Source of the DNA: Hymenobacter sp. BT730 | GTDB taxonomy: Bacteria > Bacteroidota > Bacteroidia > Cytophagales > Hymenobacteraceae | Direction: 5' to 3' | Length of the DNA stretch: 64,000 bases | Assembly: GCF_030542105.1 (NCBI RefSeq) | Contig: NZ_JAUOFB010000001.1 | Coordinates: forward strand, 1,054,001 to 1,118,000 | Shown here: piece by piece, positions 46,901 to 62,071 of the stretch | Numbering within the stretch: position 1 is the stretch's first letter | Layout: each line of letters opens with the position of its first letter | Program-made: the position numbers and the translations under genes | The notes under the pieces: model-generated | What the model saw: the letters and a program-made list of their open reading frames with translations, nothing else | Database searches by the model: none | Told to the model about the DNA's origin: nothing

Positions 46901-47948
46901 GGTAACTACCCTGAGAATAGGCGATGCTCAGCCGAACCTGATGCTTTCTTCGGCCACGTTGCAGTCCACCTCGGTCGTGAGTGGCGGCAGCGTTACCAGC
47001 AGCGTAGTAGTAAAGAATGATGGCTCCGCCGCGGCAGCATCCAGCACCCTGGGTTATTACCTGTCCACTAATACTACCTGGGAAACCAGTGACGTACTGC
47101 TGCAAACCGTAACCGGCGCCTCCCTGGCTGCTTCCGGTACGGCTACGCGCACCGCTACGCACACCATTCCAACTGGCACCACCGCGGGCAGCTATTATGT
47201 GTTGTTTGTGGCTGATCCAGCTTCAGCTGTAACAGAAAACAGCGAAACCGACAACGTGGCTGCGGTGGCTCTCACCGTTAACTCCCCCGCAGTTACCAAG
47301 CCTGATCTGGCCTTTGTGGCCGCTTCTGGCAGTGTTACACCCGGTAGCGTGGTGGCCGGCAAGAGCATTACGGCCGGTGGCACCATAACCAACCTGGGTA
47401 CGAGCGCCGCAACCAGTGTTCCGCTTACGTTGTATCTCTCGGCTGATAATAAGCTGGATGCAGCTGACGTGAAACTGGGTACCGGCACCGGAGCCTCTTT
47501 AACCAATGGCGTGACGCGTGCACAGCAAATTACGGCCACTGTGCCGGCTACCACCACAGCCGGTAGCTATTATGTGTTGTTGATGCTGGATGCAGAGACG
47601 GTTTTATCAGAAACCAGCCGAACCAACAATCTATATAGCCTGCCGCTCACGGTTACGGTAGCCACCGCTCAGCGTGAGCAAACGGCCGGCCTGACGATTA
47701 ACGTATACCCGAACCCTACGCATTCTGCTCCCATTACCGTACATATGGATGGCGTGAGCACCACTAAGGGCGCAGCTACACTTACTCTGTATAACAGTTT
47801 GGGACAGCAGGTAGCGCAGCAAGTAGTACGTCGCCCCGGCGGCGGTGCTAAAGCGGAGTTCGAGGCCCATCAGCTAGCGCAGGGTGTTTATATGCTGCAC
47901 ATTACTGGTGAGCAGCTGCACGTAGTACGCCGCGTGGTGGTCGATTAA
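43917..47948 (+). CDS. Giant secreted CARDB-repeat protein with T9SS sorting domain
   Basis: This 1343-residue protein has a signal peptide (about 1-35, ending GAQAQT) and a CUB-like domain (DGGPSSS, ITVYDGTSTGAPVIA). Five CARDB-type repeats of about 125 residues follow, then a second CUB-like domain (YDNGGTDGY, LTVYDGPNTSYPVLA) and three more CARDB repeats. Each repeat carries YYLSxDxxxDxxDVLL and GxYYVLxVADxxNxVxExNEQNNV. The end (LTINVYPNPTHSAPI and QGVYMLHI) is a type A T9SS sorting domain. It is probably a cell-surface or secreted adhesin or matrix protein; its partner is unknown. Confidence 0.88.
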   Translation: MKHKYSSAHRQTGWWIMFCWLMVAGMLVSQGAQAQTYSMPVSGTSSITACEGTLYDDGGPSSSPSSNANGALTINPGVSGNKIKLDFTTLQMYYYDEITVYDGTSTGAPVIAVFNSNSGTGTVYATNSTGALTVKYTSNYYSYGYQGFAANISCVTSVPLSDLSIQGASAQPLSVVAGNSMYVTSSIYNMGGTTATSSNVGYYLSKDNALDASDVLLATSTGGYLAVNASSYRDQNLTIPQNTLSGAYYLLFVADNQNTVAESNEQNNVVSLSLNVVLPSIDLSIYSAYLSASSVMAGNSVSISGYVSNQGNAVINSAGVGFYLSKDATLDGSDKLLTNSNVGPIYAKDYASFYPYATIPTGTAPGSYYVLVVADYQNQLTETNEQNNVSALALTVEAPSIDLTMLQAQLGASKTTAGSQIGASSYIYNQGNTAASSSNAAFYLSSDNKLDGQDVLLAAITGGQLGASQYNDRSSTLTIPAATKAGSYYVLFAADYQNTVVETNEQNNVSAVALTIEDPYVDLLAYSLSASPYSVVTGSNVQLYGYVYNQGNTTSAATSVGFYLSSNASFDGNDVLLGNSTLSSISATAYNNYTTVTTNVAVPTGTAVGTYYVLMVADNKNSIAEKNEQNNVTYTTLSVVQPSVDLYISGADLSRYSVAAGSNFTSSFYIVNQGNTSASTSNAQVYLSSNSTFDSNDVLLVTSTGGALAASGYSYRQPSATVPANTTPGNYYVLLVADATNLVNETNEQNNTTAVSQIVVTAPFSGVVVPASGTSTLTTCSADIYDNGGTDGYASSSNGTLIIKPATAGAKLQLAFSQLSLNSYAYLTVYDGPNTSYPVLANYSYYSTSPSTVQATNTEGALTLAFSSSYYTAAGFQAKVTCILPADLTVSGATLQTSSTTPGSTLTASATITNAGQGNATYSNLGYYLSTDQNFSVNDVPLATVSGGTLNAGSSATRAGTLSIPAGTSYGSYYVLCVADPDKQEPESNENNNVAVTTLRIGDAQPNLMLSSATLQSTSVVSGGSVTSSVVVKNDGSAAAASSTLGYYLSTNTTWETSDVLLQTVTGASLAASGTATRTATHTIPTGTTAGSYYVLFVADPASAVTENSETDNVAAVALTVNSPAVTKPDLAFVAASGSVTPGSVVAGKSITAGGTITNLGTSAATSVPLTLYLSADNKLDAADVKLGTGTGASLTNGVTRAQQITATVPATTTAGSYYVLLMLDAETVLSETSRTNNLYSLPLTVTVATAQREQTAGLTINVYPNPTHSAPITVHMDGVSTTKGAATLTLYNSLGQQVAQQVVRRPGGGAKAEFEAHQLAQGVYMLHITGEQLHVVRRVVVD

Positions 47949-47969
47949 CTTTCGAGTAATACCATCCGC

Positions 47970-48021
47970 ATCGGCGGCACTTGGGTAGGCGTAAGCCACC
48001 GGAGTGCCGCCGATTTATTTA
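47970..48021 (+). terminator. Terminator after the CARDB gene
   Basis: ATCGGCGGCACT (47970-47981) pairs perfectly with AGTGCCGCCGAT (48003-48014), followed by TTATTTA. Confidence 0.75.
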
Positions 48022-48082
48022 AAAGCTAAATGAGTACTTCTGAAGCGGTTTGTGTTAGAAGGAATCCCCTTAAAACCTGCTG

Positions 48083-48529
48083 ATGAGAATTCGCCATTTT
48101 CTGCTTTGTATTGGTCTGATGCTCGGTTCAACCGGGGCTGCAGTGGCCGGCCCACCCTCCCAGATGCAGGTGGCGCGGCAGTTTTTGCTGGCCGTGCTAA
48201 GAGCAGATTATACTGCGGCCTATGGTTTATTGGCCCCGGAGGTAACCCAGGCCGTTTCACGCACGCAGTTTCAGGCAGCAGCCCGTTCTCTGCAGCAGGC
48301 AGGCCAGCAGTATCAGCCTGCCTTTGAGCTGTACAAGTTCGGTCTGCGCCTGGGCGAAGGCGACGATGTGCGACGCTTTTATGCATTTACCTTTAAAGCC
48401 GATACACTGAACGCCGCACCACACGTCCAATTGGATGTAACGTTTCGGGATTCAGCAGCTACCCGAGTATTGTTTTTTGGGTTGATGCCGATAAAGCAGC
48501 CTGCGCCTGTACCAGCTGCAAGGCACTAG
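48083..48529 (+). CDS. Small secreted protein of unknown function
   Basis: This 148-residue protein has a clear signal peptide (MRIRHFLLCIGLMLGSTGAAVAG, cleavage near residue 22). The mature part resembles small NTF2-like/DUF3887-like proteins: QVARQFLLAVLRADYTAAYGLL at the start, then alternating strands (FELYKFGLRLGEG, HVQLDVTFRD). I do not recognise a precise family. Its stop overlaps the end of anmK on the other strand by 4 bases. Confidence 0.7.
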   Translation: MRIRHFLLCIGLMLGSTGAAVAGPPSQMQVARQFLLAVLRADYTAAYGLLAPEVTQAVSRTQFQAAARSLQQAGQQYQPAFELYKFGLRLGEGDDVRRFYAFTFKADTLNAAPHVQLDVTFRDSAATRVLFFGLMPIKQPAPVPAARH

Positions 48530-49728
48530 CCCGGAAGGGAAATTTTTCCGAGCGACACGGCCGGCACTGCCTGAGAACCCGCTCCAATGATGCGGGCCTC
48601 ACCGGCCAGGGTTTCGTTGGCCAGCGTAGCAAACAGCACAGCTTCTTTAGCATCAGGCAGGAAACCCAGTTCGGCGGTAGAACAAAGTTGGCAGTGGGGG
48701 AGCCGGGCCTGAATGGCTGCTAAGAGGACAGGGTTATGCAATCCACCGCCACTGATATAAATTGGCAATGAGGGTTCTGGACCCAGTTGCTGCCGCACGG
48801 CGCGGGCTATTCCTTCTGCGCTCAGAGCTACCAGCGTAGCCAGAACATGAATAGGGGCGAGATGCTGCGTATGACTACGCTCCTGTGCGGCCTGCAGGTA
48901 AGCCAGGCTGAATAGCTCAGGGCCGGTGGTTTTGGGCAACGAAGCCTGAAAGAAGGGATGTTTCAGCAATTCCGATAAGAGCTCCTGCTGCACCGTACCC
49001 TGTGCCGCCAGTGCGCCATGTTCATCGTAGCTACGGCCGGGGTAGTGCTGCCGCACTATAGCATCCAGCAAGGTGTTCGCCGGGCCAGTGTCGGTGCTGA
49101 ACACGGCAGTGGCATCAAGCGAGCCGGGTAAATAAGTGAAGTTGGCAATGCCACCCAGGTTTAGCAGCAGCCGGTCTTCGCCGGGTTGGGAGAAGAGCAG
49201 ATAGTCACCGTACACGGCTAGGGGGGCTCCTTCGCCTCCCGCGGCCACATGCTTCTGCCGAAAATCACTGATTGTCAGAATGCCCGTGCGCACCGCCAGG
49301 TGGTCGGCGTCGCCGAGCTGCAGGGTAGCGTTGGGCCACTTCAAAAGCTGATGTTGGTGCCGTGGAGCATGGAATACGGTTTGGCCGTGGCTGGCAATCA
49401 GGTCTACCTCTTCTGGGGGGACCTGCCAGCGTTGCAGGCATTGCAGCACCAGTTCACCATGCAGATTGCCTAGCCAGGCGTGTAGGAGCGTGAGATGCTG
49501 CAAATTGACCTGCTGCCGGGCAAACACCTGCTGAATGCGCTGGCGGGTATCAGCCGAGTACGGCACTGTAGCAAACTGCTCCACCACTACCTGCGTAGCG
49601 GGCCCAGTACCGGTAAAACGGCATAGCGCTACATCCAAGCCATCCAACGAAGTACCCGACATCAGCCCCACAATGCGCCTGGATGGTTGCTGGGCCAGGC
49701 GACAGAGATGAGCAAGCTGGGTGTTCAT
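48526..49728 (-). CDS. anmK: Anhydro-N-acetylmuramic acid kinase
   Basis: This 400-residue protein phosphorylates and opens 1,6-anhydroMurNAc, recycling murein fragments to MurNAc-6-phosphate. It has the ASKHA phosphate motif VGLMSGTSLDGLDVAL (about residues 20-35), IASHGQTVFHAP, LGGIANFTYLP and DTGPANTLLDA, and ISGGGLHNPVLL near the end. Start at ATG 49728 (MNTQLAHLCRL); 25 more codons upstream lie in an inverted repeat and are rejected. HscA-like gene precedes it on the same strand. Confidence 0.93.
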   Translation of the reverse strand: MNTQLAHLCRLAQQPSRRIVGLMSGTSLDGLDVALCRFTGTGPATQVVVEQFATVPYSADTRQRIQQVFARQQVNLQHLTLLHAWLGNLHGELVLQCLQRWQVPPEEVDLIASHGQTVFHAPRHQHQLLKWPNATLQLGDADHLAVRTGILTISDFRQKHVAAGGEGAPLAVYGDYLLFSQPGEDRLLLNLGGIANFTYLPGSLDATAVFSTDTGPANTLLDAIVRQHYPGRSYDEHGALAAQGTVQQELLSELLKHPFFQASLPKTTGPELFSLAYLQAAQERSHTQHLAPIHVLATLVALSAEGIARAVRQQLGPEPSLPIYISGGGLHNPVLLAAIQARLPHCQLCSTAELGFLPDAKEAVLFATLANETLAGEARIIGAGSQAVPAVSLGKISLPG

Positions 49729-49758
49729 GCAGAATGGTGGGAAGTGTAGATAAAAGTT

Positions 49759-49802
49759 GTCATGCAGAGCGGAAGAAGCATTTTCTTCCGCTCTACATGA
49801 CA
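49759..49802. repeat. GTCATG-type inverted repeat upstream of anmK
   Basis: TTGTCATGCAGAGCGGAAGA (from 49757) mirrors TTCTTCCGCTCTACATGACA (to 49802), with one mismatch. Its left arm resembles the string at 61057 (GTCATGTTGAGTGCAGTGGA). It may be a dispersed repeat. Confidence 0.6.
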
Positions 49803-49818
49803 AAGTAGAGAAAACTCA

Positions 49819-51681
49819 TTACTCAATCTTCTTACCCGCCATGGCCTGCTTGATGGAGATATTCATCACCCGCTCAGCAAAGGGGCGCGTCAATTCCTCC
49901 AGCTCGTCTACGGCTTTCAGAATAGTGTCCTTGGTGTTGGTCGCCAGAGATTCCCGCAGCCGCTCGGTGGCGGCGGCTGTCTCGGTAATCTCATCCTCGG
50001 TGAGATGGAGGGAGTTTTTCTCCACGAAACGCTCTACCTGATAGAGCATTTGTTCCGCCACGGTGCGGGCCTCAATCACCATGCGCGCCGCCACGTCCTC
50101 GCGGGCGTGGGTGAGGGAGTCCATCAGCATTTGCTCCACCTGCTCATCAGTAAGGCCGTATTGGGGCTTGATTTCTACTGCCTGGCGGGTATTGGAGCGC
50201 AGTTCAACGGCTTCCACTTTCAGAATGCCATCGGCATTCAGAATGAAGTTGACATCTACTTTGGGCAAGCCGGCGGGCATTGCGGGAATCCCGCGCAAGT
50301 CAAATTCGGCCAGCTTACGGTTTTCTTTTACCAAATCCCGCTCGCCCTGATACACGGAGATTTTCAGGTTTACCTGCCCATCCACGCTAGTGGTATACTG
50401 GCGGCCGGCTTTGGTGGGAATTTTAGAGTTGCGGGGAATGATGGGGTCCATCAGGCCGCCCAGCGTTTCAATGCCGAGGGTAAGCGGCGTGACGTCCAGC
50501 AGCAACACGTCGCGGCGGTTGCCGGCCAGAATATCAGCCTGAATAGCAGCTCCCAGCGCCACTACCTCGTCGGGGTTCAAGGTGTTGTTGGCCGGCTGCT
50601 GGAAGAACTCGGAAACGGAATCATACACCAATGGCACCCGGGTAGAGCCGCCAACCAGCAGCACCGCGTCAAGGTCCTGGGGCGTCAGCTTAGCATCAGC
50701 CAGGGCCTGACGGCAGGAAGTAATCGTGCGCTCCACCAATGGGCGAATCAACTCATTGAACTCGGTCCTGGTGAGGCGCAGAACCAAGTTCTCGGTGAAA
50801 TTGGCCCCGAAGTCATCGTCCTTGCTGAGGTAGCGCTTTGCCGCTTCGGCCAGCAGGCGCAACTCCTGCTGCAGGGGCACATTGTTGGCCAGCAGGCTGT
50901 TGAGATTGTGCTGGGCCGTCCAGTGGTTGATGATGGCCCGGTCCAGGTCGTCGCCACCCAGGTAGGTGTCGCCGTTGGTGCTGAGAACTTCAAAAATGCC
51001 CTGCTGAATGCGTAGGATGCTGACATCAAAGGTGCCACCCCCCAGGTCGTAAACCGCCACGGTTTTTTCTTCATCAGGCGAAAGGCCGATGCCGTAGGCC
51101 AATGCGGCCGCCGTGGGCTCGTTTACAATACGCAGCACTTCCAGCCCAGCCAGGCGGCCAGCGTCGCGGGTAGCCTGGCGCTGAGAATCGTTGAAGTAGG
51201 CGGGAACAGTGATGACGGCTTTGTTCACGGGCGTTTTCAGCGCGTGCTCAGCCCGGGCCCGCAGCTCTTTCAGAATCTCGGCCGACAGCTCAATAGGCGA
51301 GTAGAACCGGTCGCCCACCCGGATTTTCACCATGCCTTCAGAGTTGTCATCAATCACCTTATAGCCCAGGTCCTGTGCATGTTCTCCCAAGTCGCGGTAT
51401 GACTTGCCCAGCAGGCGCTTCACCGAGTAAATGGTGTTTTGCGGATCAGTAAGCAAGTATTCCTTGGCCTCGGTGCCCACAATAGGCGTTTCCCCGCCTT
51501 GGGGGAAGTACACCACAGAAGGGACGATGGTGCCCCGGCCCAGATCATTGATGGCCACCGGCTGGCGGGTTTCCGGGTGAATGTAGGCTACCAGCGAGTT
51601 GGTGGTGCCCAAATCAATCCCAACGATAATTTCTTCCTGCTGCAGGCTCCCGGTGGAGAGGTTAATTGCGACTTTAGCCAT
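49819..51681 (-). CDS. hscA: Hsp70-family chaperone, HscA-like
   Basis: This 620-residue protein starts at ATG 51681. The ATPase domain shows [11 protein letters not shown] (about 20-30), [28 protein letters not shown] and [15 protein letters not shown]. The substrate domain has [14 protein letters not shown]. The lid begins with [16 protein letters not shown], a PxYGLTD segment typical of HscA rather than DnaK. HscA helps move Fe-S clusters from IscU. No isc genes are nearby, so the family subtype is less sure than the Hsp70 call. Confidence 0.85.
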
Positions 51682-52073
51682 AAGGTGCGACGCGCCCAAA
51701 CCGGGCGCAAGCGAAACGGGGGTGAAAAATCAGGTAGCTGATAAACCGCTTCGGGGCCACAAAAGTAACGAAGAAATAAGCGGCATGCCCGGGTGCCAGT
51801 AGGAAATGGTGAGGATGGGAATAACCAAATTATGTATAGAAATAAGCCAGTATACACAATCCGCTATTTCATAGGGTTACGTACATACTTTATCCTCGCA
51901 TATCTATATAACTGGCTCTTCCTGAGGTTGTAAATCTCTAAAGTCTTTGGTGTGTTACCCGTGTTTTCTGGGTAGCGCTACTCTTGCTTGTTCCGGTCGG
52001 TGTTTGCTGCTTTTCTATCTGAATAGCCGACGGATGATGTTTTTCTTTTTCTCCTTCTAACCCTACTGTAGTT
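51682..52073. other. Divergent gene-free region between hscA and the DUF4331 gene
   Basis: In these 392 bases no gene was seen. The middle (about 51820-51930) is AT-rich. Apart from the minus-strand box at 51760-51767 I see no exact TAnnTTTG promoter; TCTTTGG near 51943 and TACTTTAT near 51887 are imperfect plus-strand candidates. Confidence 0.5.
51760..51767 (-). promoter_or_regulatory. -7 box of the hscA promoter
   Basis: CAAAAGTA reads TACTTTTG on the minus strand, matching TAnnTTTG, and lies about 80 bases upstream of the hscA start. No TTTG at -33. Confidence 0.5.
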
Positions 52074-54158
52074 ATGAACAAGATTACTCGTCCGATTTTT
52101 TCATTTGCCTTACTAGCGGCCGGGGCGGTAAGCCTGGCAGTATGGAGTGGGCAAACGACCACGCTGGAAGCATCCAGCCACCGGGAAGCACCACTGATTG
52201 CCGATGACCCCTTGGCGGACAACACGGATTTATACGCCTTCCGGAGTCCTAACGCGCCCGAAACGGTTACTATAATTGCCAACTACATTCCGTTAGAGCT
52301 TCCGCAGGGTGGGCCAAACTATAACACATTTGGAGAGAATGTGCGCTACGAGATTCACATCAAGAACAAAACCACAACCACGGGCGACGACATTACCTAC
52401 CGGTTCACCTTCACCCGCACAAACGAAGACCCAACTACTTTCTTCAATATTCGACTGGGCAAGCAAAATCTCAAAACCACCTATAAGTGTGAGATGAGCA
52501 AAGGCGGTGCCGCGTTTACTACGGTGGTAGCAGCAGGTGTAGTGCCGCCCACCAACATTGGGCCGCGCTCCATTGAAAATGCTACCGTAGGTCTGGGTAA
52601 ACCCTATAATACCTTAATGCAGGATGCCATTGAGGAAGTAGGGGGGACCAAGATTTTCTGCGGCCCGGTAGACGACCCCTTCTTTGCTGACTTAGGGGGA
52701 ATTTTTGATGTGGGTGGTATTCGGAGCGCCTCCGGTGCCCGCGACGGTCTGGCTCGCAAAAACACCCATGCCATTGTGCTGCAAATTCCTATTAAAGACT
52801 TGCAGAAGGATGGTAAAGCAGCAACTGAGGCCAAGAATATTCTGGATTCAGACTTCATCATTGGCGTATGGGCTTCGGCCAGCCGACCCAAGCTGCGCAC
52901 CCTAAACGCTGATGGCACGCAAACACACTCCGGCGACTGGGTGCAGGTATCGCGCCTGGGTATGCCGCTGACCAACGAAGTCATTCAGCCCATTGGCCAG
53001 AAAGACCATTGGAACGCGCTGACTCCTTATAATGAGGAAAAAGCAACGGAAGAAAACCTGGTAAACCCCGAGCTGGCGCTGTACATGGATGACAGCCAGT
53101 TTGGGGGCGCGGTGCCCGGCCTGAGCGCCCTGCGTATCCAAACTTCCTCTTTGCAGTCATTTGACTTCCGGAACACGAAAAATGGGGTTTCCGGCCTGCT
53201 GGGCAATGCCGCTACGGCTAATACAGCCTTTGCGAAGGCCGCGGATGGCGGCTTTGGCGAATACCTGCTGCGTGCGGGCAAACCCCGCTCGGTAGATATC
53301 CTGCCTATCTTCCATACCGGTGTGCCCAATCTGCCTCCATATCAGTTGGCCACCGGGAAACCTGCTCGCAGCCCCCTTTCCCCCGGCAAGCCGTTTATCA
53401 ACAACTTCCTTCCTAACACGGGTACCAACACCACGGGTGGCGATATGCTGCGGTTGAATATGGCGGTGCCTGTTACGGCGCGTAACTCAGCCGATTTCAG
53501 CTCAGAAGGATTGCTGTCGGCCGCAGTGCTGGGGCTTACTGATGCCCGCTTCAACAAAGACCTTTCCTTGCAGAGTATTCCGAACATGGACGGCTTCCCG
53601 AATGGCCGCCGCCTGGAAGATGATGTGGTACGTATTGAGCTGCAGGCAGTTGGAGGCGTTGCGCTGGCCGCTATTGGTCTGTTCTATGATGACTACACGG
53701 CTACGGCAACCAACCCGGTAACGCCGGATCTGTTGAGCGTGCTGGGCTTCACCACGGGTGTCGAAAAAAATGACACTACTTTCAAAACAGCCTATCCCTA
53801 CCTGCAAACGCCATGGCGTGGTACTTCCGTGAGTAGCGACGTAGTAACCGCTCTTTTGCCGCGTAGCCCAGGGTTAAATATGCAGACCCCCCTCATGGCT
53901 CTGGCCCAGAACTATCCAAATCCCTTCAGCGGCCAAACTACGTTCCTCTACAAAGTAACCGTGAAAGCCCCCGTAACGCTGTATATCAGTGACCTGGCAG
54001 GGCGGCGTGTGGCTACTCTGTTGAAAGAAGAAGTGCGCAAACCCGGCACCTATGAACTGAAATGGAATGCTTCCTCGCTGAAGAAGGGCCTATACATTGC
54101 TACCATGTCTTCAGGCGGAGAAGTAATTCAATCGGTGAAGCTGTTGCACACGCGCTAA
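52074..54158 (+). CDS. DUF4331 family secreted protein with T9SS sorting domain
   Basis: This 694-residue protein has a signal peptide (residues 1 to about 32). The DUF4331 core opens with SSHREAPLIADDPLADNTDL and YAFRSPNAPETVTIIANYIP, and has QGGPNYNTFGENVRYEIHI; the family is of unknown function. The last roughly 80 residues (LAQNYPNPFSGQTTFLYKV, GRRVATLL, KGLYIATM) are a type A T9SS sorting domain, so it is sent across the outer membrane. It leads a three-gene set with a TPR protein and a HupE/UreJ protein. Confidence 0.88.
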   Translation: MNKITRPIFSFALLAAGAVSLAVWSGQTTTLEASSHREAPLIADDPLADNTDLYAFRSPNAPETVTIIANYIPLELPQGGPNYNTFGENVRYEIHIKNKTTTTGDDITYRFTFTRTNEDPTTFFNIRLGKQNLKTTYKCEMSKGGAAFTTVVAAGVVPPTNIGPRSIENATVGLGKPYNTLMQDAIEEVGGTKIFCGPVDDPFFADLGGIFDVGGIRSASGARDGLARKNTHAIVLQIPIKDLQKDGKAATEAKNILDSDFIIGVWASASRPKLRTLNADGTQTHSGDWVQVSRLGMPLTNEVIQPIGQKDHWNALTPYNEEKATEENLVNPELALYMDDSQFGGAVPGLSALRIQTSSLQSFDFRNTKNGVSGLLGNAATANTAFAKAADGGFGEYLLRAGKPRSVDILPIFHTGVPNLPPYQLATGKPARSPLSPGKPFINNFLPNTGTNTTGGDMLRLNMAVPVTARNSADFSSEGLLSAAVLGLTDARFNKDLSLQSIPNMDGFPNGRRLEDDVVRIELQAVGGVALAAIGLFYDDYTATATNPVTPDLLSVLGFTTGVEKNDTTFKTAYPYLQTPWRGTSVSSDVVTALLPRSPGLNMQTPLMALAQNYPNPFSGQTTFLYKVTVKAPVTLYISDLAGRRVATLLKEEVRKPGTYELKWNASSLKKGLYIATMSSGGEVIQSVKLLHTR

Positions 54159-54196
54159 GCGAGGTAGGCTCAGCCACATATTCATATTGCCAAAAG

Positions 54197-54229
54197 CTAG
54201 CAGCCGGGGGTAGAAGGCCCGGCTGCTAG
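54197..54229 (+). other. Strong hairpin between the DUF4331 and TPR genes
   Basis: CTAGCAGCCGGG (54197-54208), a 9-base loop and CCCGGCTGCTAG (54218-54229) pair perfectly, without a T-run. It may uncouple the levels of the secreted protein and the membrane proteins. Confidence 0.6.
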
Positions 54230-54268
54230 TGTGCGCAGTACTTATGCAATGCTTTAAAGACTGGTGCT

Positions 54269-55594
54269 TTGCGAAAATATCTTTACCCTTCCTTACTGGT
54301 GCTGTTCGCCGCGGCGGTGGCGGCTTTGTTTCTGTTTCGACGCCCTGAGCCAGTACCCCAGCTCAAGAATCGCCACGGAGATTTAGCCGTTGGTGGCGAG
54401 TGGCTCAACACCAAAAAGGCCGTGAACGGGCTCCAGGCCCGCCTGCGTACTCACCCCAATGACTACGAAGCCCAACTACAGCTGGCGCAGGCCTACATGC
54501 AGGAAGGCCGCGTGACCGGCGACCATGGCTACTACGATGCCGCAGCGGTAAAGCTGCTGAATCAGGTGCTGCAGTCCGAGCCCGAAAACTTTGAAGCGCT
54601 GTGCTGCAAAGCGTCGCTCAGTCTCACGCAGCATCACTTTTCCGAAGGCCTGGAGCTAGCTCGCCGTGCGCAGGCTAAAAACCCGTATAGCGGCTTTGTA
54701 TATGGCTTGCTCTGTGATGCTAACGTGGAGCTGGGAAACTACCCCGAAGCGGTACGAATGGCAGATAAGATGAATGCCGTGCGCCCCGACCTGCGGGCGT
54801 ATGCCCGGGTATCGTATCTAAGGGAGATTCACGGTGACCTGCCCGGTGCTATTGAGGCTATGCAAATGGCTGTAAAGGCGGGCTACGTAGGGCTGGAGCA
54901 AACAGAATGGGCCCGCGTGATGCTGGGCCATCTGTATGAGCAGACCGGCAGCCTCGACCTGGCGGATCAACAATATCAACAAGCTTTGCAGAACCGGCCT
55001 TCCTACGCCTATGCGCTGGCGGGAATAGGGCGGATAGAACGGGCCCGGCGCCAATATCCGGCGGCCATTAAGCATTTGGAGCAGGCGCATGCCATGGTGC
55101 AGGATTATGCTTTCACAGAAGAGCTAACAGACCTTTACACGCTGAACGGCCAACCGGAAAAATCAGCGGCTGCTGCCCGTGATGCTATTGCCCAACTGGA
55201 CGCCAGTGCCCAGGCCGCCGATGCCGATGAGAACGTAGGCCACTACGTGGATCGGGAACTGGCCCTGGCCTACCTGAAAACCGGCGAGCTGAACAAAGCC
55301 CTGGAGCATGCCACCATCGAGTACAAACGCCGCCCCGATAACATGGACGTCAATGAAACCATGGCCTGGGTGCATTACAAGCGGGGCGAGTACCCGCAGG
55401 CGGCAAAATTTATGCAGGTGGCCCGCCGGACCCATTCCCAGAATCCCACCCAGCTATGCCGGGCCGGGCTTATTTTGCTGAAAACCGGGCAGGAAGCTGC
55501 TGGCCAGGAGCTCATCCGTCAGGCCCTCGCCATTAACCCATATCTGGAAACGGAACTAGCTACTGAGGGCCGTAAGCTACTGGCCATTCGCTAG
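54269..55594 (+). CDS. Membrane-anchored TPR protein
   Basis: The predicted product is 441 residues from a TTG start, the first possible start codon in frame, giving MRKYLYPSLLVLFAAAVAAL as an N-terminal membrane anchor or signal. The rest is TPR repeats: PNDYEAQLQLAQAYMQEGR, NFEALCCKASLSL, PSYAYALAGIGRIERA, YVDRELALAYLKTGELNKAL and MDVNETMAWVHYKRGEYPQA. It is probably a periplasmic scaffold. Nine bases (to a TTG) or 32 (to the ATG) separate it from the HupE-like gene, so the two are surely cotranscribed. Confidence 0.82.
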   Translation: MRKYLYPSLLVLFAAAVAALFLFRRPEPVPQLKNRHGDLAVGGEWLNTKKAVNGLQARLRTHPNDYEAQLQLAQAYMQEGRVTGDHGYYDAAAVKLLNQVLQSEPENFEALCCKASLSLTQHHFSEGLELARRAQAKNPYSGFVYGLLCDANVELGNYPEAVRMADKMNAVRPDLRAYARVSYLREIHGDLPGAIEAMQMAVKAGYVGLEQTEWARVMLGHLYEQTGSLDLADQQYQQALQNRPSYAYALAGIGRIERARRQYPAAIKHLEQAHAMVQDYAFTEELTDLYTLNGQPEKSAAAARDAIAQLDASAQAADADENVGHYVDRELALAYLKTGELNKALEHATIEYKRRPDNMDVNETMAWVHYKRGEYPQAAKFMQVARRTHSQNPTQLCRAGLILLKTGQEAAGQELIRQALAINPYLETELATEGRKLLAIR

Positions 55595-55626
55595 CTCCTG
55601 TATTGACCTGTGCTGTGTTTGGAACG

Positions 55627-56313
55627 ATGTTTCTTCGGTGTTTGACAGCAGCTCAGTGGCGGCTGACTCTTCTCGTGCTGGCGCTGCTATTGCTGCCCCA
55701 GTTGGGGGAGGCGCACGTGCTGGATGTAGACCTGAGCAAACTCTCCCGCACCGATATCGTGCTGACGTATCTGCGGCTGGGTTTCACCCATATCCTGCCG
55801 TTAGGCCTCGACCACATTTTATTCGTCGTGAGCATCTACCTGCTGGAGCCTCGCGTGCGGGCGGTGCTCTGGCAGGCCACAGCTTTTACGGTGGCGCATT
55901 CCATTACGCTGGGGCTGGCTATGTATGGGCTTATTTCGCCGCCTACAGCTATTATTGAGCCTATTATTGCCTTGTCTATTCTATTTGTCGCGCTCGAAAA
56001 CATCATTACCGAACGCCTGAACCCGTGGCGGCTGGCTATTGTGTTTGGGTTTGGGCTGATTCATGGGATGGGTTTTGCCAGCGCCCTCACTTCCGTTGGA
56101 TTGCCGCGCGCTTCCTTTCTGGAGTCGTTGGTGGCCTTTAATGTGGGCGTGGAATTAGGACAGGTATCAATTATTCTGTTGCTGTATCTGCTGGTTGGGC
56201 GTTGGTTTGCGGGCAAGTCGTGGTATAAGCAGCGCATTGTTATACCGGCCTCTGTAGTCATTGGCCTCATTGCCATTTACTGGACAGTAGAACGTGTATT
56301 TTTTACTGCGTAG
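55627..56313 (+). CDS. HupE/UreJ family membrane protein
   Basis: This 228-residue protein starts at ATG 55627 (MFLRCLTAAQWRL). It has a signal-like first helix ending LGEAHVLDVDL, then about six membrane helices. Conserved polar sites are HILPLGLDHILFV, TVAHSITLGLAMYG and FGLIHGMGFASAL; these His/Asp motifs resemble nickel/cobalt permeases of the HupE/UreJ_2 type. A role in metal movement is family-level inference. It ends the DUF4331-TPR-HupE set at a strong terminator. Confidence 0.83.
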   Translation: MFLRCLTAAQWRLTLLVLALLLLPQLGEAHVLDVDLSKLSRTDIVLTYLRLGFTHILPLGLDHILFVVSIYLLEPRVRAVLWQATAFTVAHSITLGLAMYGLISPPTAIIEPIIALSILFVALENIITERLNPWRLAIVFGFGLIHGMGFASALTSVGLPRASFLESLVAFNVGVELGQVSIILLLYLLVGRWFAGKSWYKQRIVIPASVVIGLIAIYWTVERVFFTA

Positions 56314-56328
56314 GCCCGATGACACAAT

Positions 56329-56364
56329 AAAAAAGCCCCTTCCAACATAGGAAGGGGCTTTTTT
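56329..56364. terminator. Bidirectional terminator between hupE-like and amylase genes
   Basis: AAAAAAGCCCCTTCC (56329-56343), a 6-base loop and GGAAGGGGCTTTTTT (56350-56364) serve the two convergent genes. Confidence 0.93.
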
Positions 56365-56384
56365 CAAAAGATACTTAACAACTT

Positions 56385-58757
56385 CTAGCGCACCAGAACT
56401 TTGCTGCTGCGGTTTATTTCCGGTACCGATAGCTGGTACACGCCAGCGGGCAGCGTCTGCACTTTCAGGCGCAGCTCATTGGAGCCTGCATACAGCTGCT
56501 CAGCCTGCTCGTGAACGAGGCGGCCGGTCAGGTCGTAGAGGCGCAGCGTAACTGTGCGCTCTGCGGGCGTCTGCACGGTAAACTCAATGTGGCTGGCTGA
56601 AGTGGGGTTAGGATATACCGTCAGGTCAGTAGTGAGGTCCTGCTTGGCGCCCTGTTCATCCGTTGGGTTAGTACCCCGGGCCGTCATGGAGCCAACTACA
56701 GCCGTTGGAGCCGTGTAGGTGACTTTCACAAAGGCACGTTGCGCGGGATTAGCGGTGCTGGCGTTTTGCGCCTTCAGCGTAATCCACCCGGCTGCGGTGG
56801 GCGTGTAAGTGCCCGTGAGCGTGCCAATACCGGTTTTGCTGGTTACCGTAGTGCCCGCGTTGTTATACAAGGCAATGGTCAGGCTCCGGGTAGCATCGGT
56901 GGGATACAGCGTGTAGGTAATGGTTTTGTTGGCAGCGGCATAAATGCGGCCTGCAGTGCGCATAGCCGTAGAAGCGGCTGGCAGCTGACCGCCCTGCTTC
57001 AGCGAAGAAGCGTGCGAATCGCCCAGATCATCGGCCAATTCCCATTCCTGGGTGGTAGTCAAAGCGGCCTTGGTGTAGTTAGTCACAATGCCCGTTGGAG
57101 CCCAAACCGAGTAGCCCCGACGGCCACCAGCGGCGGTGCCGTTGCAAGGCGGGGTGTTGATGGCTACCGTCTGCGAGCCGCTCACTGTTACTGTGGCCGT
57201 GCCGTTAGCACCGGAGTAGTCCTTCAGCACGGTGCCGGGAGCGAAGTCACAGCTCACAGTGGTGTTCTGCCAGGTGCTCCAGTTATCGTTGATGCCGATA
57301 ATGGCTTTGGTGCTGCGCTCGATGACGAGGTGGTCGACGGCCTGGCCACGCACTTTGTAGGCGCCATCTTTAAAATGTAAGTTCTGGTGGCACCAGATCA
57401 GGTTTTCCAGGTCGCCACGCGTGGGCAGATCTGTGGTGCTGGTAGGCTGGTGAATGAAACGCTTGCTGGTAGTGCCCACGTTGAACAGGTCTTCAAAGAA
57501 AATCTGGGGCGAGCCATCCAAAGCCAAAGCTGCGGCATACGCCGCCGAAAGCCGTCCATCGGATGGGTCGATGTGGGGTGCCAGCTCCGAGCCGGTGTTC
57601 CAGCCGGTGTAGTTGCCGTTGGCATCCGTGGTGGGGCGGAAGGTGTCGTGGTTATTCACGAAAGGCACCGTACGGTGCACATAGGTGCCTCCAATATTTA
57701 CTACGCGCGTGCCCTGCTGGTAGCCGGGCAGGCTGCCCAGGTCAAAATTGCCGCCCTGGCTCACAATGCTGTAAATTCCATTGCGCAGAGAGAAGTCAAA
57801 GGTGCCGGCGCGGTTCTGCACGTTGGCTACCCAACTGTCCATCTGCCCCGAAGAACCTACCCACTCGCCTACGGCAAACATGGTAGCGCCCCCGTTGGCC
57901 CAGCCCGCGTTGCTTTGCATGTTGTAGAGGAAGTCCTCCATGGCAAAGTCGGGGAAGTGTTTCACAGCATCCAGTCGCACGCCATCAAAGCCCACCTGCT
58001 TTTTGTACCACACCAGCCAGTCACGCGTGTTATTGCGCATGTAGTCGGCGGTTTGCGCGGGGTTGTAGGTAGCATTGGAACTCTGACCATAGGAGCCGTT
58101 ATAGTAGCTCACATCGGGCCCGAAGTACACTGCGTTCCAGTCGCCGGAAGTAGAGTTATTGCCGGGGTTGGGGTTGAAGTTCTGCCAGTTTTTCGCGAAG
58201 CGGCCGTTGCGGGCCAGGTAGTTGGTAGCATCTTCAGCCGAGGCAGGCTTGGTATAGCTTACATACCGGAAGTTTTTGTACTTGCTGGTCGTATAGTCTT
58301 CCCAGGCGGCGGGGTCCTGGCCGCCGGCACCGGATTGTGAGCCGGCACCATCTACGTGGTTTAGCACAATATCCTGTACTACCTCAATACCGTTGGCGTG
58401 CAGAATAGCTACGGCGCGCAGCAACTCATCTTTGGTGCCCAGGCGCGTGCCTACAAAGCCTTTCTGGTACTTGTCGCCCAGGTCGTAGTTGTCGAAGGGG
58501 GAATAGCCATTGCCCTGGTTACCGTTTTTAACGGAGGGTGGCAGCCACACGGCATCAATGCCCATGGCTTTCAGACGGGGAGCCAGCTGGGCAATGTAAT
58601 TAGCCCACCCGTTGGGGTAGTTGCTGTTCCAATAGTCCCACCAAAAACCCTGAAGGACAATTTTCTGGGCTTGCGCCGGTCGGTTGGCACCAACCAGCAG
58701 GCAGCCGAGAAGACACAGAAGGGCAATGGCCCTCCTGAAAGGAGTACGCGTGTGCAT
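56385..58757 (-). CDS. Secreted GH13 alpha-amylase with T9SS sorting domain
   Basis: This 790-residue protein has a signal peptide (to about AQAQ, residue 31). The GH13 barrel has DIVLNHVDG (region I), GFDGVRLDAVKHF with nucleophile Asp263, VGEWVG with acid/base Glu298, and FVNNHDTFRP with Asp371. A C-terminal beta domain and a PPC-like region follow. The end (LTVYPNPTSASHIEF to SKVLVR) is a T9SS sorting domain. It should cleave alpha-1,4-glucans such as starch outside the cell. No sus-type transport genes are adjacent. Confidence 0.93.
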   Translation of the reverse strand: MHTRTPFRRAIALLCLLGCLLVGANRPAQAQKIVLQGFWWDYWNSNYPNGWANYIAQLAPRLKAMGIDAVWLPPSVKNGNQGNGYSPFDNYDLGDKYQKGFVGTRLGTKDELLRAVAILHANGIEVVQDIVLNHVDGAGSQSGAGGQDPAAWEDYTTSKYKNFRYVSYTKPASAEDATNYLARNGRFAKNWQNFNPNPGNNSTSGDWNAVYFGPDVSYYNGSYGQSSNATYNPAQTADYMRNNTRDWLVWYKKQVGFDGVRLDAVKHFPDFAMEDFLYNMQSNAGWANGGATMFAVGEWVGSSGQMDSWVANVQNRAGTFDFSLRNGIYSIVSQGGNFDLGSLPGYQQGTRVVNIGGTYVHRTVPFVNNHDTFRPTTDANGNYTGWNTGSELAPHIDPSDGRLSAAYAAALALDGSPQIFFEDLFNVGTTSKRFIHQPTSTTDLPTRGDLENLIWCHQNLHFKDGAYKVRGQAVDHLVIERSTKAIIGINDNWSTWQNTTVSCDFAPGTVLKDYSGANGTATVTVSGSQTVAINTPPCNGTAAGGRRGYSVWAPTGIVTNYTKAALTTTQEWELADDLGDSHASSLKQGGQLPAASTAMRTAGRIYAAANKTITYTLYPTDATRSLTIALYNNAGTTVTSKTGIGTLTGTYTPTAAGWITLKAQNASTANPAQRAFVKVTYTAPTAVVGSMTARGTNPTDEQGAKQDLTTDLTVYPNPTSASHIEFTVQTPAERTVTLRLYDLTGRLVHEQAEQLYAGSNELRLKVQTLPAGVYQLSVPEINRSSKVLVR

Positions 58758-59053
58758 AAGCAGTGGGAATTGGGGAGTGAGAAAAGAGAGATTATTCCTT
58801 GATCGGGGGTGGCCGAAAGGGGAGGTTAAATTAGCGAAATACTATGCTTTAAGTATGGCTGGAGCCTATATAAAATTTGGATATTCACAATCCAAGTCCT
58901 TCTAATTTGAATTATATGATGACAATACCTGTTCCAGCAGTTGCCCCCTGGTAGAACAACCGAGCCATCAGCCATTTTTTTACGTATAGTCGGCATTGCT
59001 TCCGCGCAAGTGGAGGCTATACACCCCGACTCCATCTGTTTACTTATTGCTAT
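58758..59053. other. Divergent spacer between amylase and L,D-transpeptidase-like genes
   Basis: In these 296 bases I see no gene and no exact Bacteroidota promoter on either strand. It must hold the two divergent start regions. Confidence 0.4.
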
Positions 59054-59887
59054 ATGGAAAAGCCAAGTGTTATTCGCCGGAACCGTCTGAAGCGCCGCGC
59101 GCGTCGGGCAGCACGTCGTATTCTGCCGTTTGTAGCCTCGCTATTTATGGCTACTCCGCTGGCTACCCCCATGGGTTCTACACAGGCCCGCGCCACCACA
59201 GCGGAGCACCGGCTGCCCACGGCCGCCGAGCTACGGGCCAGTGCCTTTTCCCAAACCACCCACCAGTTGTACAAAGAGCTGGGCGTAGAGGTTACTGGGC
59301 TGCGCTATGAGGTGTTTGAGAAAGCGCTAACCGGCTACCTGAACCTGAAAGGTGACGGTAAGCTGAGCCAGGACAAGCAGCTGCTTACCGTTATTGACTT
59401 CGATAAGCCTTCCACTGAGAAGCGCCTATGGGTATTGGATCTGGCTCAGAAACAGATTCTGTTCCATACACTGGTAGCGCACGGCCATAACTCTGGTGAA
59501 AACGTGGCTACTACCTTCTCTAACGAGAATGAGTCGAACATGAGCAGCCTGGGCTTTTATGTAACGCAGGGGGAATACAATGGCAAGCATGGCCGTTCCC
59601 TCAAGCTGCAGGGCGTGGACGAAGGCTATAACGACAACGCCATGGCGCGTTCTGTGGTGATGCACGGCGCTGACTACGTGAGTGAGGACTTTATCAAGCA
59701 GTTTGGCCGTCTGGGCCGTAGCCTTGGTTGCCCGGCATTGCCCATGGATCAGTATGCACAGATCATTGACGCTGTAAATGGCGGCACCTGCCTTTACCTG
59801 AATGGTTCGGACGAATCGTTCAACTCCCGTTACCTCAATAAAGACGTTGCTATGGATACTTTCTTCCGGGAAGGTGCCCTGATTTAA
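59054..59887 (+). CDS. Murein L,D-transpeptidase catalytic domain-like protein
   Basis: This 277-residue protein has a very basic start (RRNRLKRRARRAARR) and a hydrophobic segment, consistent with a long signal or an anchor. The catalytic half shows HTLVAHGHNSGEN, VVMHGADY (His204) and GRSLGCPALP with Cys226, the HxxxSxGC layout of YkuD_2-type proteins. It may cross-link or trim peptidoglycan in the periplasm; activity is not proven for this subfamily. It ends at a perfect palindromic terminator. Confidence 0.82.
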   Translation: MEKPSVIRRNRLKRRARRAARRILPFVASLFMATPLATPMGSTQARATTAEHRLPTAAELRASAFSQTTHQLYKELGVEVTGLRYEVFEKALTGYLNLKGDGKLSQDKQLLTVIDFDKPSTEKRLWVLDLAQKQILFHTLVAHGHNSGENVATTFSNENESNMSSLGFYVTQGEYNGKHGRSLKLQGVDEGYNDNAMARSVVMHGADYVSEDFIKQFGRLGRSLGCPALPMDQYAQIIDAVNGGTCLYLNGSDESFNSRYLNKDVAMDTFFREGALI

Positions 59888-59900
59888 AGCAAATTCTCTA

Positions 59901-59948
59901 TAAAGCAAAAAGCCCGCTTGCCGTACGGCAAGCGGGCTTTTTGCTTTA
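59901..59948. terminator. 48-base perfect palindrome, bidirectional terminator
   Basis: TAAAGCAAAAAGCCCGCTTG (59901-59920) and on through the centre GTAC mirrors exactly to 59948. A5 and T5 runs inside the arms allow termination for both convergent genes. Confidence 0.92.
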
Positions 59949-59951
59949 GTT

Positions 59952-61019
59952 CTACAAGGAAAGACCGAATTTCTTACCGACCGTTTCCAGATCCTGCACA
60001 ACCGGATGCAGTAACGGAATGCCATCCAGCAAGCGGTGTGCAGCCATTTCGCGCTCCGGGTCGCCGGGGATGAGGACCTGCTGACCGGGTACGGCGCGGG
60101 CGTTGCGGAAAGTAGTAATCCAGTTATCCATGTGGGCTTTGAACTCTGCGGCCGGGCGGAAAGCATCCACGCGCATTGCCCCAAAAAAGTGCCCGATACC
60201 CTGACCCACCGGGTCAGCGGGGGGCTGGAGAAATGCTACAAAGGGTGGTACCCACGGGCCATAATTGGCCCCGGAGAGTACTGCGGAAAAGATATCTACC
60301 ACGCTGCCCAGGCAATAGCCTTTGTGGGAGCCGGTTTCACCGCCCAGGGGCTGCAGCGCGCCGCCGTCTTTTAACTCGTTGGGGTTGGTAGAGGTGTTGC
60401 CATCTTTGTCCTGAATCCAACCAGCAGGGGCGGGTTGATTCTTGCGCTGCAGAATTTCCAGCTTGCCGTTGGCCGCCGTGGTAGTAGCAAAATCGGCCAC
60501 AAAGTCGGGCTGGTCGCCGGCAGGAATGGCTACCGCAATGGGGTTAGTGCCCAGCAGCCGGTCCAGAGAGTGAGTAGGGGCTACCAGCGGCGAGGCGTTG
60601 GTCATGGCCAGGCCAATCATATCAAAAGGCAGCGCCTTCATAGCATGATAACCTGCAATCCCGAAATGGTTGGAATTGCGCACCGATACCCAGCCTGTGC
60701 CGGCCAGTTGGGCCTTTTGAATGGCTACCTTCATAGCCTTGGGGCCCACTACCAGTCCCAAACCACCATCACCATCCACCACGGCCGTGCTGGGTGTTTC
60801 GTACGTTACGCCTACCCGGGGCGTGGCGTTGATGCGGCCGGCTTCCCATAAGCGTACATACCCAATCAGCCGTGCTACGCCGTGAGAGTCAATGCCGCGC
60901 AAATCAGCAGAAAGCAGGGTTTCGGTAGCGAGGGTCGCATCATCATCCGGGCAGCCAATGCTTTTGAAGACAGACTCGGTGAAGGAGAAGAGGTGGGTAT
61001 AGGAGAAGTTGGAAGTCAT
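59952..61019 (-). CDS. Ldh family malate/lactate-type dehydrogenase
   Basis: This 355-residue NAD(P)-dependent oxidoreductase is of the Ldh_2 (YlbC/ComC) family, not related to classical LDH. Motifs: ADLRGIDSHGVARL (about 38-51), DGDGGLGLVVGPKAM, VRNSNHFGIAGYH with a likely catalytic His, and TNPIAVAIPAG. Members reduce or oxidise 2-hydroxy acids such as malate or sulfolactate; the substrate cannot be told here. It lies downstream of ppx/gppA with a 95-base gap holding a GTCATG repeat. Confidence 0.88.
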   Translation of the reverse strand: MTSNFSYTHLFSFTESVFKSIGCPDDDATLATETLLSADLRGIDSHGVARLIGYVRLWEAGRINATPRVGVTYETPSTAVVDGDGGLGLVVGPKAMKVAIQKAQLAGTGWVSVRNSNHFGIAGYHAMKALPFDMIGLAMTNASPLVAPTHSLDRLLGTNPIAVAIPAGDQPDFVADFATTTAANGKLEILQRKNQPAPAGWIQDKDGNTSTNPNELKDGGALQPLGGETGSHKGYCLGSVVDIFSAVLSGANYGPWVPPFVAFLQPPADPVGQGIGHFFGAMRVDAFRPAAEFKAHMDNWITTFRNARAVPGQQVLIPGDPEREMAAHRLLDGIPLLHPVVQDLETVGKKFGLSL

Positions 61020-61056
61020 GGAGGAGTATGCAGAATTTCAGGCTGAGCAGAACGCC

Positions 61057-61098
61057 ATTCGTCATGTTGAGTGCAGTGGAGGCATCTCACTTGCTGAC
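61057..61098. repeat. GTCATG-type repeat between ppx/gppA and ldh
   Basis: GTCATGTTGAGTGCAGTGGA (from 61057), then GGCATCTCAC, resembles the left arm of the inverted repeat at 49759. Strings of the kind GTCATGTYGAGYGCAGTSGA are common intergenic repeats in Hymenobacter-like genomes (from memory). Confidence 0.5.
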
Positions 61099-61114
61099 GT
61101 TGCCACGTATATCG

Positions 61115-62071
61115 TTACTGGGCCAGCATTTCGCTCAGCAGGCCTTCTTTCAGGGCATAGGCCGAGGCAGTGATGGAGCGGAATCCGTAGGCGGTCAGTA
61201 CGGAGTTAATCAGCACGCAGGCTACCACAATCATGTCGGCGCGTAGGGGCGTCATGCCCGGCAGGGCGAGTCTGCCCGCGTGATTCAGGGAGAGCAATTG
61301 GTGGTAGCTGGTCTTGAAGCTTTCAAAGGAAATGAAAGTGGCCGGCTCGGCTTTGCCTACCAGCTCAGGATGGCCGGTGCGGGCAGCCTGCAGGTCGCAA
61401 AGCGTATCGAAGGTGCCGCTGGCGCCTACCAGGCCAACCGGGTGGTAGTGGTGAATGGCCGTAGTGAGCGGAGCCAGTACTTCAGCCAGGTAGTTCTGCT
61501 CGGCCTGGATAGCTGCATCCGGCAGGGGGTCGTGGGTGAAAAACTTATCCAGGAGGCGCTGGGCCCCAATTTCAAAGCTTTGCTTCCAGAAAGTGCGTTC
61601 CGCATTAGCTATAATGAATTCTACGGAGCCCCCACCAATATCCATGAGCAGGTGCGGCTGCTCGCCCAGCGGCACGGCCTGCCGAATGCCTTTGGCAATC
61701 AGTTCGGCCTCCCGGTCGCCGGCAATGATATCGACTTTAATTCCCGTTTGATCGAAGATGTCTTCTACCAACTCGGCACCGTTGCGGGCTACGCGCACGG
61801 CGCTGGTAGCCGTGGCGCGCACTTCCGTTACTTGGTGCAGCTCAATTTCTTCCTGAAAGGCCGCCAGCGTATGCAGGGCTCGGGTATAGGCCGCGGGGGC
61901 AATTTCGCCGTTGCTGATACCGCCTTCGCCCAGCTTTACGCCCACTTTGGTGCGCATCAGCACCACCGGCTCCTGGTGGCGTGGCTCCGGCAGCTCCACA
62001 ATCAGCAGGTGGAAGGTGTTGGTGCCCATATCAATCAGGGCCAGGCGGCGGTGTTTGGTAGGAGTGGTCAT
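61115..62071 (-). CDS. Ppx/GppA family phosphatase
   Basis: This 318-residue ASKHA-fold protein has ALIDMGTNTFHLLIVE near the start (about 10-25), ATATSAVRVARNG, LLMDIGGGSVEFII and GLVGASGTFDTL. Family members hydrolyse exopolyphosphate or the pppGpp 5' phosphate. It is the short two-domain form, so exopolyphosphatase and pppGpp hydrolase cannot be separated. Between the methyltransferase gene (87 bases upstream) and ldh. Confidence 0.9.
   Translation of the reverse strand: MTTPTKHRRLALIDMGTNTFHLLIVELPEPRHQEPVVLMRTKVGVKLGEGGISNGEIAPAAYTRALHTLAAFQEEIELHQVTEVRATATSAVRVARNGAELVEDIFDQTGIKVDIIAGDREAELIAKGIRQAVPLGEQPHLLMDIGGGSVEFIIANAERTFWKQSFEIGAQRLLDKFFTHDPLPDAAIQAEQNYLAEVLAPLTTAIHHYHPVGLVGASGTFDTLCDLQAARTGHPELVGKAEPATFISFESFKTSYHQLLSLNHAGRLALPGMTPLRADMIVVACVLINSVLTAYGFRSITASAYALKEGLLSEMLAQ

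Follow-up and report, generated by a model that had tools for sequence, protein, structure and literature searches.

The window analyzed here is a 64,000-nucleotide (nt) stretch of the Hymenobacter sp. BT730 genome (contig NZ_JAUOFB010000001.1, positions 1,054,001 to 1,118,000 of the forward strand). It contains a group of three genes, which encode a protein with a DUF4331 domain (PF14224), a protein with tetratricopeptide repeats (TPR), and a membrane protein of the HupE/UreJ-2 type:

52074–54158, forward strand: DUF4331 protein, 694 aa, with a signal peptide, the DUF4331 domain, and a type IX secretion system (T9SS) type A sorting domain
54269–55594, forward strand: TPR protein, 441 aa, with a TTG start and a hydrophobic N-terminal anchor
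55627–56313, forward strand: HupE_UreJ_2 permease with a probable ATG start; the open reading frame (ORF) is open from TTG 55603

A first-pass annotation, made from the sequence alone, had placed three ORFs here and quoted the motifs LPLGLDH, VAHS, and LIHGMGF; the ORFs and the motifs were all found. It also mentioned the same gene set in other Bacteroidota and offered metal capture and uptake as a guess at its function.

Among 149 relatives, 74 have PF14224; in a set of 395 genomes from across the phylum, it was detected in 48, with full-length matches in 23 and weak, split ones in 25. A six-frame profile search was used to map 120 loci, and 108 of them were kept (56 from the genus of the window and 52 others) after five duplicates and seven flavobacterial loci with a split DUF4331 below 100 bits were dropped. 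Because longest-ORF calling in GC-rich loci (e.g., L103, L128, and L155) masked genuine genes for TPR and HupE by ORFs of the opposite strand, the counts given here come from the six-frame search. The sample is not random: loci L061–L100 were hand-picked among the matches, and for loci L101–L179 the 79 best-scoring of 583 confirmed relatives were taken, which gives close relatives a large share in it. A TPR homologue lies within 6 kb of DUF4331 on the same strand in 99 of the 108 loci, a HupE gene lies within the same distance and on the same strand in 77, and a TonB-dependent receptor gene in 81. The three neighbors occur jointly in 66/108 loci, and HupE without TPR was found in none of the 108. 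At least two HupE genes are present in 69 of the 70 genus genomes with DUF4331 vs. 4 of the 21 without it (p = 9e-14 over 91 genus genomes, a value that ignores shared ancestry). The conserved linkage on which the first-pass idea depended was therefore found, and its remark on this gene set in other Bacteroidota holds. DUF4331–TPR–HupE is a real conserved cassette, of which we have hardly any doubt, and the linkage of its genes is near certain.

The same neighborhood extends beyond the phylum. A tblastn search of plasmids revealed DUF4331 in 33 records; 18 of them were opened, 17 of which are non-Bacteroidota. A HupE or NicO gene lies near DUF4331 in 12 of these 17 loci (eight proteobacterial HupE and four actinobacterial NicO-family “nickel transporter” genes), and a TPR protein is encoded in 13. 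One of the actinobacterial NicO proteins matches PF03824 with 30.7 bits, and phmmer indicated its relatives. The TPR protein adjacent to DUF4331 in Streptomyces is a clear relative of the window TPR protein (34% identity over 154 aa). The proteobacterial HupE proteins are 366–406 aa long and have an N-terminal domain beginning with His; in Paraburkholderia hospita, the gene order differs and HupE is located upstream. Four Rhodobacterales plasmid loci (L194, L195, L198, and L206) contain neither HupE nor TPR; here, DUF4331 adjoins a type II secretion system (T2SS) cluster and an A24 prepilin peptidase gene. One actinobacterial locus has a class F sortase gene between DUF4331 and TPR. Since the company of DUF4331 varies with the phylum (T9SS tails, T2SS clusters, or a sortase), it seems to travel with the surface-delivery machine of each phylum. 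Linkage without shared function, that is, a merely inherited neighborhood, would be consistent with most loci coming from one genus or its phylum; however, the same neighbors recur in three phyla, and the genes are jointly present or absent within one genus. We give this explanation almost no weight.

In many relatives, the cassette is larger than in the window. In Hymenobacter, HupE is followed by a small Cys/His-rich gene in 48 of 56 loci and by a TonB-dependent receptor gene in 48 of 56 as well. Outside Hymenobacter, a different small His-rich ORF (123–148 aa) occupies the same place, between HupE and receptor, in nine loci read; neither type of small protein has a match in Pfam or NCBIfam. 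The receptor, which is of the carboxypeptidase-regulatory type in the 81 loci mentioned above, has generic best PDB matches, with plug matches to B12, siderophore, and copper receptors. In this respect the cassette resembles the TonB-dependent metal receptor modules of Bacteroidota, from which the window genome differs in the absence of this receptor. Two DUF4331 genes in tandem are present in many non-Hymenobacter loci, and a DUF6702 gene adjoins HupE in L080.

A signal peptidase I (S26) gene is located 4–248 nt upstream of DUF4331, on the same strand, in L126, L129, L133, L135, L138, L141, and L143, while the same profile has only two other matches in all 120 loci. A dedicated signal peptidase, as some lineages seem to have, would make sense if the system depends on the exact N-terminus. 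L141 and L143 also carry an extracytoplasmic function (ECF) sigma factor and a cupin protein, which we take for an anti-sigma factor. Sigma factor genes lie near DUF4331 in L065, L072, L141, and L143, they are divergent in L145 and L167, and an ECF sigma factor with its anti-sigma factor is found upstream in two Pseudoalteromonas loci. Such genes could indicate envelope sensing, in which DUF4331 and the TPR protein would report surface conditions to an ECF sigma factor, with HupE as a sensor-like membrane part. However, sigma genes are absent from most loci, including the window, and such a gene would usually be read as the regulator of the cassette, which makes envelope sensing very improbable.

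The evidence that bears most on function concerns the beginnings of the predicted mature proteins:

52074–52172, forward strand: predicted signal peptide of DUF4331, residues 1–33, ending in TLEA (−3/−1 rule)
52173–52181, forward strand: Ser-Ser-His at the predicted mature N-terminus, an X-X-His motif of the amino-terminal Cu and Ni (ATCUN) type, then Arg-Glu-Ala-Pro
55714–55716, forward strand: His codon directly after the predicted HupE signal peptide (GEA|HVLD; −3/−1 rule)

Ser-Ser-His is present in all 150 DUF4331 proteins compared; four further ORFs, broken or at contig ends, are without an N-terminus. The preceding residue is Ala in 143 proteins, Ser in four, and Gly in three, and a cut before Ser-Ser-His agrees with the −3/−1 rule in 148/150. 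In the plasmid loci (n = 18), the predicted mature protein opens with SSH in 16 cases and with ASH in two. The flavobacterial N-terminal halves of DUF4331 show A|ADH in six of six read, and a cut at His itself is unlikely in them because Asp precedes it. Since SSH, ASH, and ADH occur across these sets, X-X-His is the constant element. In the cassette HupE proteins scoring above 300 bits, a His follows an Ala-X-Ala-type site in 79 of 79 cases, this residue having been picked as the His that follows Ala, Gly, or Ser 15–45 residues before the core motif; the −3 position then agrees with the rule in 76 of the 79. It is located 23–30 residues before the H-x-DH core, and the residues between are variable. 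Where the start could be read, the same N-terminal His is present in proteobacterial HupE (seven proteins) and actinobacterial NicO (two proteins); three weaker HupE proteins (L069, L079, and L080) have no such His. As a background, 347 further signal-peptide-like proteins of these loci include 10 with His at position +1 and six with His at position +3. X-X-His at a free N-terminus is the ATCUN motif (PMC7596191), and DUF4331 resembles ATCUN peptides and proteins in having X-X-His at its predicted mature N-terminus. Judging by the sequence, X-X-His may be the metal-binding site of DUF4331, with the chances close to balanced and slightly on the doubtful side.

The permease matches PF13795 with 157.7 bits (cut-off 24.5) and PF04955 with 34.6 bits (cut-off 23), which agrees with its first description as a HupE/UreJ-type membrane protein. 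The PF04955 match is a likeness to the HupE/UreJ nickel permeases, with which it shares the His/Asp helix motif. The conserved sites are as follows:

55789–55815, forward strand: H-ILPLGL-DH motif; H26, D33, and H34 invariant in 38 sequences (alignment A3)
55894–55902, forward strand: A-H-S motif; A61 and H62 invariant (alignment A3)
56062–56076, forward strand: H-G-M-G-F motif; H117, G118, G120, and F121 invariant (alignment A3)

Every row of alignment A3 was trimmed to begin at His1, and the invariance of His1 in it is thus by construction. The predicted structure (mean predicted local distance difference test, pLDDT, 87.6) shows about seven helices packed together, the first residues being loose; Foldseek gave no match for it at E ≤ 0.001, the best rows being a glucose-6-phosphate transporter (E 0.059). 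The second HupE gene of the window genome (L188:8690–9280) encodes neither a signal peptide nor an N-terminal His and adjoins an 807-aa peptidase-like gene. The window TPR protein carries TPR repeats in addition to its hydrophobic N-terminal segment.

The name “anglerases” refers to HupE/UreJ-2 permeases in which an additional domain begins with an N-terminal His (Ang-1 and Ang-2; PMC12537917, Nat Commun 2025). According to this paper, these N-terminal-His domains bind Cu2+ with Kd values of 73.6 and 62.3 nM and Ni2+ with 220 nM, a DUF6702 protein binds Ni2+ at 5.6 pM, and metal capture and uptake are proposed for the N-terminal-His HupE. The window permease resembles the anglerase HupE proteins in being a bacterial PF13795 permease with a mature N-terminal His, predicted here, and the proteobacterial HupE neighbors of DUF4331 resemble Ang-1 in their length and His-initial N-terminal domain. 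The term DUF4331 is absent from the main text of PMC12537917, and DUF4331, the TPR protein, the receptor, and the small gene do not occur in the passages of the anglerase text that were compared. A further likeness is to the DUF6702 metal-binding proteins of that paper: DUF6702 is a secreted N-terminal-His protein of Bacteroidota, and one such protein is encoded beside HupE in L080. It differs in having no sequence relation to DUF4331 and in its absence from the window cassette.

The same parts could also serve metal defense: they would trap extracellular copper or nickel, and the permease would export or buffer the metal, like RcnA-type NicO proteins. The NicO family includes exporters, and it takes the position of HupE in the four actinobacterial loci. 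However, no known metal-resistance gene was found in the cassettes read, the cognate TonB-dependent receptor, an uptake part, accompanies DUF4331 in three quarters of the loci (81/108), and it is uptake that PMC12537917 proposes for the N-terminal-His HupE. Defense is therefore quite improbable.

The DUF4331 protein matches PF14224 with 426.7 bits (cut-off 27), residues 34–580 covering the whole profile (1–421). Its sorting domain is recognized by PF18962 (30.3 bits, cut-off 27) and by TIGR04183 (33.6 bits, residues 614–690) and is located as follows:

53913–54143, forward strand: T9SS C-terminal sorting domain (PF18962, TIGR04183)

Together with the rule-based signal peptide, this bears out its description as a T9SS-exported protein. 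In the predicted model (pLDDT 74, predicted template modeling score 0.82), an N-terminal beta-sandwich would span residues 24–266, and the second half appears more helical and less certain. The model has no Foldseek match at E ≤ 0.001, another fold search (VIA) gave only antibody-type beta-sandwich rows, with Z up to 7.2 and not convincing, and a PDB sequence search revealed no relative of DUF4331 or HupE. The models of both proteins are uninformative on metal. In the open literature, to which the search was confined, no paper on DUF4331, PF14224, or IPR025566 was found.

It is conceivable that DUF4331 is a secreted enzyme or adhesin, with SSHREAP being part of a folded active site and metal being at most a cofactor, which HupE would supply or scavenge. 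The identity to the window protein is 63–76% across 47 relatives, distant Bacteroidota included, and such conservation over the whole domain would be unusual for a mere binder; many Asp, Glu, and Arg residues are invariant, and DUF4331 is fused with CHRD domains in L061. However, the conserved N-terminal tail (model residues 1–20) has a pLDDT of only 33–44, and therefore its place in a folded site is not supported by the model, and no enzyme was matched in the fold searches. We consider this explanation unlikely.

DUF4331 itself occurs in several forms. In L061 (10422–15002), it is fused with four CHRD domains and a T9SS tail in a 1526-aa protein. Long DUF4331 proteins of about 1270 aa are encoded in L084, L085, L087, and L088, and the genes in L083 and L164 are disrupted by a stop or a frame change. 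In flavobacteria and their relatives (L092–L098), DUF4331 is split into two adjacent genes, with an N-terminal half of about 217 aa and a C-terminal half of about 184 aa; a TPR gene then follows in six of the seven loci.

Taking the computed linkage, family memberships, secretion signals, and conserved N-terminal motifs together, we consider it somewhat probable that these genes form a reduced version of a conserved cassette for capturing and importing transition metals, and metal capture and uptake as such, judged from the sequences, is a reasonably probable function. The first-pass guess gains support because the linkage crosses phyla, NicO takes the place of HupE in actinobacteria, His and X-X-His are found at the predicted N-termini, and copper and nickel binding by N-terminal-His domains of HupE/UreJ-2 permeases has been published (PMC12537917); on the other side, no riboswitch was found in the window stretch searched or in six homologous loci. 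DUF4331 would be exported by the Sec pathway and then displayed on the surface by the type IX system in Bacteroidota. Signal peptidase would free Xaa-Xaa-His, whose amino group and backbone nitrogens could clamp Cu2+ or Ni2+. Where present, the cognate TonB-dependent receptor would carry the metal or a metal-loaded ligand across the outer membrane, and the TPR protein of the envelope might dock the parts. The N-terminal His of the HupE/UreJ-2 permease would take the ion, which would then pass the inner membrane along the conserved His/Asp sites. Exact cleavage, metal binding, the identity of the ion, the direction of transport, and the handover between the parts are what we infer here. A relay is the simplest reading because the surface part and the permease both seem to begin with a metal-binding N-terminus. 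A more specific proposal is that DUF4331 is a secreted protein metallophore, whose freed Xaa-Xaa-His would hold Cu2+ or Ni2+ tightly and pass the ion on to the permease with the N-terminal His, in three phyla, with export by T9SS, T2SS, or sortase and with a dedicated signal peptidase in some lineages. This proposal is tentative, and we regard it as rather doubtful.

A number of observations weigh against metal capture and uptake. HupE is missing in 31/108 loci and in the flavobacterial split forms, and TPR is missing in 9/108, some of them at contig ends. The Marinobacter TPR protein, in the one proteobacterial pair compared, has no detectable similarity to that of the window. The window cassette has neither the cognate receptor nor the small gene, the best cognate-receptor match in the window genome being 58.3 bits with 27% identity; both were lost or never present there, and L100 and L111 resemble the window in this. 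Unlike the anglerase HupE, the window permease has no Ang (immunoglobulin-like) domain, its His being separated from the first helix by no more than about 18 residues. Some NicO relatives export metal. All cleavage sites are predicted by the −3/−1 rule; in DUF4331, the less usual Leu is at −3 in 86/150 proteins, and the only other widely passing cut, ASS|H, two residues further on (150/150), would leave an N-terminal His. The conservation of DUF4331 extends beyond His as H-x-(E/D)-A-P, so the N-terminal stretch may be kept for folding. The metal or B12 riboswitch that the first-pass annotation suggested looking for was not found: there is no Rfam riboswitch at the gathering score in window positions 44000–62000 or in six homologous loci. 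Finally, urease is present in 46/70 genus genomes with DUF4331 vs. 13/21 without it (p = 0.80).

The last result bears on the choice of metal. No urease and no NiFe hydrogenase match was found in the window genome, whereas the controls matched in four and five of 14 named genomes, respectively; a search of the window genome for Ni-SOD gave no match, and the control genomes gave none either. The supply of nickel for urease is ruled out by the lack of a match and of an association in the 91 congeneric genomes, and that for NiFe hydrogenase by the lack of a match in the window genome. The cassette differs in this from the HupE/UreJ of hydrogenase and urease operons, and nickel, to which the name HupE/UreJ would point, is thus not favored here. 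Copper is put first because it is the measured preference of the related permease domains (PMC12537917); by this analogy copper may be the metal, with the chances somewhat below even. Nickel may come second, with cobalt left as a possibility.

The remaining features of the locus concern its transcription:

54196–54230, forward strand: hairpin of 13 bp without a T tract, between DUF4331 and TPR
56329–56364, forward strand: intrinsic terminator between HupE and the amylase-family gene; its sequence fits both orientations

The terminator has a 15-bp stem followed by T and a folding energy of −24.7 kcal/mol (z −7.0), and the strong terminator described earlier as bounding the gene set is thus real; it is absent from the list of a consensus terminator scan. 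The cassette is flanked by opposite-strand genes of the Hsp70 family (49819–51699) and the amylase family (56385–58757). The gap between DUF4331 and TPR is 110 nt, and its folding as a whole is not significant (z only −1.35). The hairpin in it is a possible 3′ stabilizer or partial terminator, and its position makes an unequal transcription level of the three genes conceivable. The roughly 130 nt that follow the DUF4331 stop fold below −30 kcal/mol in 80/96 loci, a count made without a shuffled control. The TPR and HupE genes had been described as nearly fused: the gap is indeed short, as in most relatives (63 gaps listed), but with ATG 55627 it is more likely 32 nt than 8 nt. In one Hymenobacter group, a conserved stem-loop-like motif, CCCNGGGTGAGTYYG, follows the DUF4331 stop (L106:11144–11158 and 17 further loci; 18/206 loci, some overlapping). 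This region has no Rfam match in L106 and L116, and it is possibly a cis-acting RNA element. Elsewhere in the window, positions 43917–47948 encode another T9SS surface protein, 1343 aa long, in which eight CARDB stretches and one match to CUB were detected.

The cassette is widespread and apparently undescribed, and the metal that it would take up is probably copper or nickel. Few secreted bacterial proteins that lack an assigned function are as conserved as DUF4331. If DUF4331 is the outer hand of a metal-uptake relay, this would provide a function for a large family and tie it to the HupE/UreJ-2 permeases, for which metal binding was reported in 2025. A route of protein-based copper or nickel capture would then extend across at least three phyla, and, if the metallophore proposal is true, it would be a new bacterial pathway of protein-based copper or nickel acquisition. 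As a general hint, metal handling may be recognizable by a His that is conserved at position +1 or +3 of the mature protein.

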